The position numbers and the translations under genes are program-made. A model generated the notes under the pieces. It saw only the letters and a program-made list of their open reading frames with translations. It searched no databases and was not told the DNA's origin. From Candidatus Sumerlaeota bacterium (GTDB lineage: Bacteria; Sumerlaeota; Sumerlaeia; JAFGJS01): a stretch of DNA of 64,000 nucleotides. The DNA lies in NCBI GenBank assembly GCA_016928995.1, contig JAFGJS010000102.1:19682-83681 (forward strand), read 5' to 3'. Below are positions 17,262 through 58,934 of this stretch, piece after piece. Each line of letters opens with the position of its first letter. The first letter of the stretch is position 1.

Positions 17262-17379
17262 CGGGTATCGTTTGAATCCTATCGTGCCAGAAAACAAGTC
17301 AGGAAAATAAAGAGCTAGGGCGATTGAGCGCAGTTTGATTTTATTCTGCGCTGATGGACTACCCGTGTATTTACACTCA

Positions 17380-17501
17380 CTCTTGCTCTTGCTTTTGCTC
17401 TCAATCGCTAACTGAACATGCCATGTCTCTTTGATTTGGCTCGATTATTTATTTATTTGGAAGAGCAAGAGCAAGAGTGAGAGCAAGAGCAAGAGCAAGA
17501 G
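17380..17501. repeat. Intergenic hexanucleotide inverted-arm element A
   Basis: The left arm (17380-17402) is a run of CTTGCT-type hexamers and the right arm (17461-17501) is a run of AGCAAG-type hexamers, separated by a 58-base spacer. The arms are inverted with respect to each other and could form a long imperfect stem. The sequence CTCTCAATCG at the inner edge of the left arm is shared with element C at 58578. It lies between two plus-strand genes and could also end transcription of the signalling cluster. Confidence 0.75.
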
Positions 17502-17519
17502 TAGGATGGTGATGGTTGA

Positions 17520-52923: not shown

Positions 52924-53034
52924 ATGGACAAAAAAGCGAACTGTGAATGTCAGATGTTTGACGCGCAGCGGAATATTAATCGACGGCTCTGTGTCAAATT
53001 AATGCCGATTGGGTGCAGCCGGGACGTATCTTAA
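52924..53034 (+). CDS. Marginal 36-residue frame with four cysteines
   Basis: A strong GGAGG sits before the ATG but only two bases away, which is too close for good initiation. The product has Cys7, Cys9, Cys23 and Cys31. Its last few codons run into repeat element B, whose other copy carries no such frame. More likely not a gene; listed because of the ribosome-binding-site-like sequence. Confidence 0.15.
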   Translation: MDKKANCECQMFDAQRNINRRLCVKLMPIGCSRDVS

Positions 53035-53219
53035 GTTTGTTCGGATTTTATGCTTCTTGTTCTTGCTCCTGCTCTTGCTCGCGCTCTTGCTCTCGCTCGA
53101 AATCGGATTCCGGTTTCCAAGTTCGGAATTTGGATGTAAATAGTAGACGCCGTGGTAAAGAAAAATTCCGGCTGTGTGGCGATTAATCAGAGCAAGAGCA
53201 AGAGCACGAGCAAGAAATG
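53021..53219. repeat. Intergenic hexanucleotide inverted-arm element B
   Basis: The left arm (53053-53099) is a run of TTGCTC-type hexamers; the right arm (53189-53215) is a run of GAGCAA-type hexamers. The sequence outside and between the arms matches element C at 58578 in several blocks, for example CGTATCT, GGATT.TATGCTTCT, AATCGGATTC.GG and AAAAATTCC..CTGTGTG. It lies between divergent genes. Confidence 0.88.
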
Positions 53220-53468
53220 AATACGGCACAACGTCAAGATGCGTCCGTTCAATCGTTGTCGTTATTTTTTATGGTTGGTTTTATTTACGGATGAGCAATC
53301 CATTCCGTTTCATTGAAGTCAATAGTATAAAATCCAATTCAGGATCGCGTAAAAGACCAATTTCGGTTGACTCGCGCTTGACATCCTGTTGATGCCATGC
53401 GCGAGTATACCCAGAATTGATTTAATGCGTATCAAAGTCCAATATCAAAAGGGATGGATACATTGATC

Positions 53469-58245: not shown

Positions 58246-58359
58246 GCGCGCATCTCCAGATAAAAATTCAAGTTTTCACCATAACAATAGGCATAGCGTT
58301 GTGCCATTGTGTTGATGCTGTAACATCATTGGGCTTGCATTGAGCGTATTCGTTGCATT

Positions 58360-58488
58360 GTTGAAAACCTTTTCGTACTCGTAATCAGCGTAGCGGTACT
58401 CGTACTCGATTTTATCGCTATCGCACCCGTTTGAAATACGTTTTGAGAACGAGGACGAGAACGAATGTGATTTCCCATGGTTTTCAAC
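58360..58488. repeat. Intergenic hexanucleotide inverted-arm element E
   Basis: Bounded by a perfect 10-bp inverted repeat GTTGAAAACC (58360-58369) / GGTTTTCAAC (58479-58488). Inside, the left arm is a run of TACTCG-type hexamers (about 58371-58425) and the right arm a run of GAGAAC-type hexamers (about 58445-58465), inverted to each other. Confidence 0.8.
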
Positions 58489-58577
58489 AAAGCACGGATG
58501 AGTCACATTCTGTGATATTCATGATTATCGGTCAATGGCAGACATCATATTCTGCGCTAAAAGCACTGCTTTTTGAT

Positions 58578-58756
58578 GGGCGTATCTCAAAATTGTTCAG
58601 ATTGTATGCTTCTGACTCTTGCTCCCGTTCTTGCTCTTGCTCTCAATCGGATTCTGGCGAACGGATTCAGCATTAGGATTTTAATGGCTGATGCTTTGTA
58701 AAAAATTCCAACTGTGTGAAGTGCATTTTATCAGAGTAAGAGCAAGAGCAAGAAAA
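58578..58756. repeat. Intergenic hexanucleotide inverted-arm element C (copy of B)
   Basis: Left arm 58609-58644 (TTGCTC-type) and right arm 58732-58753 (GAGCAA-type), with outside and spacer sequence shared with element B. It lies upstream of purL in a divergent gap next to element E. Confidence 0.88.
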
Positions 58757-58934
58757 GACGTACGATAAAGCCGAGATAAGCCCTTTTTTGAGGGTAAATC
58801 GAGATTCGTTGTTGATCTTTTGATTTGGATCGCTGATTTTCGGTTTTTCATGCGTGGGATTCGGCTGCAGAGGCGATTTTTCGCGGCTGATACAGCCGGT
58901 CGGCGCAGAGTGGAAAGCCCCGGAGACTAACCTA

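Follow-up and report, generated by a model that had tools for sequence, protein, structure and literature searches.

The dispersed element B/C, found at two intergenic positions of the window (the whole 64,000-nt stretch of DNA that was analysed), is a MITE, a non-autonomous DNA transposon, and the window elements are old copies of it; we place the probability of this reading at about 0.9. The assignment follows from the presence of terminal inverted repeats together with a 9-bp target-site duplication, the latter being the footprint of a transposon insertion with a 9-bp stagger. The original prediction had located both elements correctly, but the limits drawn for them cover only the middle of each, and the true units run from 53022 to 53246 and from 58578 to 58783. 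Its proposal of a non-autonomous repeat family is thereby borne out and made more precise. The copies in the window and the parts of the first are as follows:

53022 to 53246, plus strand: B/C copy 1, full length, 225 nt (profile positions 1-212, 150 bits)
53022 to 53044, plus strand: left terminal inverted repeat of copy 1, GGACGTATCTTAAGTTTGTTCGG (terminal-repeat pattern with 3 mismatches, C147:72703-72725)
53055 to 53098, plus strand: left hexamer arm of copy 1, (NTGCTC)n, about 7 units (period-6 tandem repeat; unit list)
53190 to 53216, plus strand: right hexamer arm of copy 1, (GAGCAA)n, about 4 units (inverted-repeat arm; unit list)
53224 to 53246, minus strand: right terminal inverted repeat of copy 1, GGACGCATCTTGACGTTGTGCCG in the minus-strand reading (terminal-repeat pattern, C147:72905-72927:-)
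58578 to 58783, plus strand: B/C copy 2, full length, 206 nt (profile positions 1-212, 148 bits)
17327 to 17506, plus strand: probable degenerate third B/C copy (profile positions 2-188, 63 bits; sequence read)

In the probable third copy, the left end GAGCGCAGTTTGATTTTATT and both hexamer arms can be recognised, while the right end cannot. When the first window element was used as the query in a genome search, the second was recovered at 70% identity over 176 nt (E=1.4e-17), confirming that the two are copies of one unit and not independent runs. A profile of 212 positions, built from the genome copies and applied with a cut-off of 60 bits, matched approximately 35 sites in the 4.55-Mb genome (161 contigs), at least 27 of them near full length, so that the refuting condition set originally, a family of only two copies, does not apply. 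The unit is about 212 nt long, and any two copies are on average 65% identical. Outside this genome, the 212-nt consensus was absent from 60 other genomes (38 of the same class, 1 more of the same phylum, and 21 from outside the phylum), except for one 34-nt match to an arm; the nearest of these genomes belong only to the same class.

The imperfect terminal inverted repeats, with the consensus GGGCGCATCTYRASTTTRTCC, lie outside the hexamer arms, and the corresponding pattern was found at 35 genome sites with up to 3 mismatches, compared with 0 for the reversed control pattern. Regarding the target-site duplication, the identity between the two flanks of a copy reached 0.543 at a length of 9, compared with 0.251 when flanks were paired between different copies, and none of 2000 permutations was as good; at the remaining tested lengths, from 3 to 14, flank identity stayed near background. 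Perfect 9-bp duplications are retained in two B/C copies (CATTGTATT and AATCGAGAA), and decayed ones are found at both full-length window elements, namely gtgcagccg / gttcaatcg around copy 1 (6 of 9 positions identical) and ctttttgat / ttttttgag around copy 2 (7 of 9).

We used the definition of a MITE as given in PMC3049150 and PMC10969869, into which B/C falls by its small size, its intergenic position, its duplication, and its lack of coding capacity. Against a usual length below about 500 bp, the unit of about 212 nt is short, and it is multi-copy and dispersed, with 35 sites; it bears terminal inverted repeats and a target-site duplication, and it is relatively AT-rich, with a GC content of 47% compared with 56% in a genome sample. 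The location is intergenic, there being no overlap with called genes at 42 of 43 B/C sites. No transposase gene is carried by the element itself, as had been noted; the longest open stretches in the two window copies comprise 74 and 46 codons. The neighbouring genes and their divergent arrangement were also as predicted, with a FlgEFG-type rod protein and a GH51 arabinofuranosidase on either side of copy 1, and a GNAT acetyltransferase and PurL on either side of copy 2.

A mobilising transposase with GGGCGCATCTYRASTTTRTCC ends was sought in one Pfam family, DDE_Tnp_1 (PF01609), and none of the three genes of this family in the draft assembly of 161 contigs had such ends. Likewise, the B/C terminal-repeat pattern gave 0 matches in 84,980 genomes and in IMG/VR. 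Since these searches recovered no transposase bearing the B/C ends, we can only infer the mobilising enzyme, which was most likely of the DDE type. The B/C insertions would have been made in trans, by the transposase of an insertion sequence that shared the B/C ends; this parent has presumably ceased to be recognisable in the assembly, and the B/C copies, given their mean divergence, are probably mostly inactive.

Just inside each end, B/C carries a hexanucleotide array, composed of NTNNTC units on the 5' side and GANNAN units on the 3' side. That these arms are real, as originally proposed, is indicated by the 22 matches of GAGCAAGAGCAAGAGC at up to 3 mismatches, compared with 0.74 expected (none of 100 shuffles reached 22), and by the rank of the inverted arms among the longest inverted repeats of the window. 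All listed units fit NTNNTC (GANNAN on the other strand), in a listing whose regular expression presupposed that rule. The number of units per arm ranges from 2 to 7 and is independent between the left and right arms (r=-0.09), most of the variation falls on bases 1 and 2 of the unit, and a TC dinucleotide is kept at 6-nt spacing in every unit, whichever strand is transcribed. Adjacent duplicates of rare variant units occurred 4 times compared with 0.8 expected (33 of 5000 permutations), which fits slippage. The polarity of the arms is fixed: the Y-then-R order outnumbered the R-then-Y order by 12 to 0 in this genome and by 162 to 3 when summed over nine genomes, overlapping registers being counted in both cases, and the 3 exceptions came from a single contig of the Desulfobacterales genome HSG2.

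The arms are also the best-conserved part of the element. Among 26 copies, a set from which copies with decayed arms may be missing, identity to the consensus was 91% in the arms compared with 77% in the ends and 71% in the core; arms exceeded the core in 24 of the 26 copies and the terminal repeats in 25 (Wilcoxon p ~1e-7). Selection, homogenisation, and the manner of finding the copies could each account for this high conservation, and they cannot be told apart with these data.

The arrays are not particular to B/C, and a second hexamer-armed family, termed D, has a copy in the window:

58354 to 58494, plus strand: family D hexamer-armed MITE copy, terminal inverted repeat TGCTYTGTTGAAAACCT, hexamers GTACTC / GAGAAC (genome matches; terminal-repeat pattern; duplication test)

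This copy, which sits 83 nt from B/C copy 2, has 37 matches in the genome when fragments are counted. The family D ends TGCTYTGTTGAAAACCT, which we take to resemble those of IS903-type elements, were found at 33 sites compared with 0 for the control pattern, and a 9-bp duplication was evident from a flank identity of 0.817 compared with 0.381 (14 copies). The left hexamer stretch is again the most conserved part. A 9-nt interrupter, AGCGTAGCG, located between GTACTC units, is common to the family D copy at 58354-58494 and to Desulfosudis loci (L194, L205) of another lineage. A third family, E, has TTGCTC arms and ends near CCCGCATTTCTCACCACT, and is flanked by CTAA or CTAG in several copies; its 4-bp duplication was read by eye, and the register test, not built for this family, gave no signal. 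The family E loop contains GGTTGGGCA / CACACACTG, and apparent CTAR targets were seen (loci L231, L233, L235, L236, L242, L243, L105, and L074). Since the ends of D and E are different from those of B/C, with a duplication established by statistics for D and by eye for E, hexamer arrays are carried by at least two, probably three, transposition systems of one genome.

When 84,980 genomes were scanned for the arrangement CTTGCTCYTGCTC-N78-108-GAGCARGAGCAAGA, 91 stretches were obtained, most of them from HSG2, while the remaining matches came from two Hydrogenedentes, a Verrucomicrobiales, a Chthoniobacterales, a Gemmatimonadetes, a Brocadiia, and other Desulfobacterota. In HSG2, many arrays lie inside a MITE with the ends CATAAGTGTAAACTTA (191 sites compared with 0 for the control) and a 10-bp duplication (identity 0.850 compared with 0.329), and copies with identical ends carry different arrays. 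This is a recent-looking family (L140-L219) with hypervariable arrays of TTGCTC, TTTATC, and TTAATC and with hexamer palindromes of up to about 440 nt. The HSG2 arms show a weak within-copy concordance of unit type (TTTATC, r=0.36), and no long end pair enclosing a transposase was found among the terminal-repeat sites listed for this genome. Shared ends were seen by eye in the Hydrogenedentes elements, and an automatic terminal-repeat search of the Verrucomicrobiales elements gave mostly noise. Other genomes of the same class as ours contain GTGCTC/GTAATC arrays, some of them as hairpins. In one genome of this class (G001, L278-L297), single GTGCTC-GTAATC arrays without inversion were matched hundreds of times, with no hairpins and no recognised ends, which means that the arrays are not confined to MITEs. 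Arrays of NTNNTC followed by GANNAN are found in three MITE families of our genome, with different ends and with 9-, 9-, and apparent 4-bp duplications, as well as in the HSG2 family with its 10-bp duplication.

The long stem predicted from the hexamer arms could also be taken for a structured RNA gene or a cis-regulatory RNA, a possibility raised in the original prediction, and the predicted fold is indeed far better than that of dinucleotide shuffles (z -3.8 to -6.9, on both strands). Moreover, B/C lies upstream of at least one gene in 31 of 31 placeable cases. The stem nevertheless forms on either strand, as it would for any inverted repeat, the window contains no Rfam match, and the target-site duplications point to insertion. 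Covariation, which had been suggested as a check, was not found: in 26 aligned copies, 0 of 13 consensus pairs had changed on both sides, and arm complementarity was no higher within copies (870) than between copies (856 +- 23). We consider the RNA reading very improbable. An RNA stem under selection is unsupported by the same two results, and arm-to-arm concerted evolution or compensatory pairing was likewise discarded for B/C, given the lack of concordance within copies. The DNA-binding or architectural role also considered originally is possible for the hexamer arms only, which are candidates for it.

Accepting that B/C is a MITE, its arms may be a passive hexamer satellite, made and homogenised by slippage at a palindrome, without function or selection. 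The free variation of unit number between arms and copies, the rare variants present as adjacent duplicates, and the HSG2 arrays that differ between copies with identical terminal repeats all speak for this explanation, to which we give serious weight, somewhat below even odds. Slippage alone, however, predicts neither a fixed polarity nor one unit rule across MITEs with unrelated ends. The arrays might instead provide a putative directional transcript signal, such as a Rho-binding track in which TC recurs every 6 nt, or a nucleoid-protein platform that would make insertions tolerable. This alternative would agree with the spacing of TC on whichever strand is transcribed and with arms that outlast the remainder of the element, but B/C is absent from convergent gene pairs, the setting in which a terminator would be an advantage, although this avoidance is not shared by families D and E; we regard the alternative as unlikely. 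Specifically, the B/C neighbours are divergent in 13 cases, tandem in 18, and convergent in 0 of 31, compared with an intergenic background of about 19% convergent by length in the same sample, and convergent placement was seen in 6 of 16 cases for family D and in 4 of 6 for family E, a contrast that is a lead only, the gene calls having been made with a simple script and the D and E flanks being short. Promoter or terminator signals around the two window elements were at chance level.

The reading that we consider most likely, and plausible, is that the arms are prone to slippage and are held in sequence and direction by recognition, with the passive satellite nearly as likely. The arrays would gain and lose six-base units by slippage during replication, and a further pressure would keep their sequence and polarity. 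A host factor or the transposase could recognise the array directionally, reading it inward from the transposon end; we favour such recognition, at close to even odds, over a requirement for a hairpin, since a fixed polarity would be superfluous for a hairpin alone.

Among known dispersed repeats, ERIC and REP/BIME are intergenic imperfect palindromes, as is B/C; to our knowledge, they have neither a 9-bp duplication nor hexamer arms. In Porphyromonas gingivalis, BrickBuilt is an intergenic MITE that, like B/C, contains a tandem satellite of variable unit number, in its case of 23 nt, and is predicted to form long stem-loops, and the same species has a second satellite-bearing MITE type, 464/PgRS (PMC4596501). 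In contrast to the two inverted 6-nt arrays just inside the ends of B/C, BrickBuilt has one array of 23-nt direct repeats, with a leader on one side and a tail on the other, so that B/C cannot be counted as a BrickBuilt element. The 23- and 41-nt repeats described in that paper had no match outside the species (PMC4596501), and this confinement also differs from the hexamer rule, which recurs across phyla. The BOX element of Streptococcus pneumoniae is, like B/C, a dispersed intergenic composite in which the number of internal tandem modules (boxB) varies, but these are much longer and form a single array between boxA and boxC, without inverted hexamer arms (PMC3049150). Similarly, the Correia element of Neisseria is a short intergenic MITE present in many copies, frequently upstream of genes, and bounded by inverted repeats, but these are 26 bp long and of another sequence, and no hexamer arrays are described for it (PMC3049150, PMC10969869). 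No description of hexamer strings or of hexamer-bearing MITEs was found in the open-licence literature. Satellite-carrying MITEs such as BrickBuilt are already known, while paired inverted hexamer arrays inside the ends, present across unrelated families and phyla, appear to be new as far as that literature extends.

These results indicate that B/C belongs to an ordinary kind of element, and that its arms are not ordinary. We tentatively propose that MITEs belonging to several unrelated transposition systems, in different phyla, have each independently acquired the (NTNNTC)n...(GANNAN)n module with its fixed polarity, because the array aids mobility or tolerance. For those who survey environmental genomes, the finding carries a warning, namely that repeats with hexamer stems can pass for new structured RNAs. 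The recurring rule and polarity also provide a clear test between a shared accessory signal and a mutational process that rebuilds the same satellites. If the proposal is true, the arrays would represent a hitherto undescribed accessory, sequence-directed and shared among small transposons.
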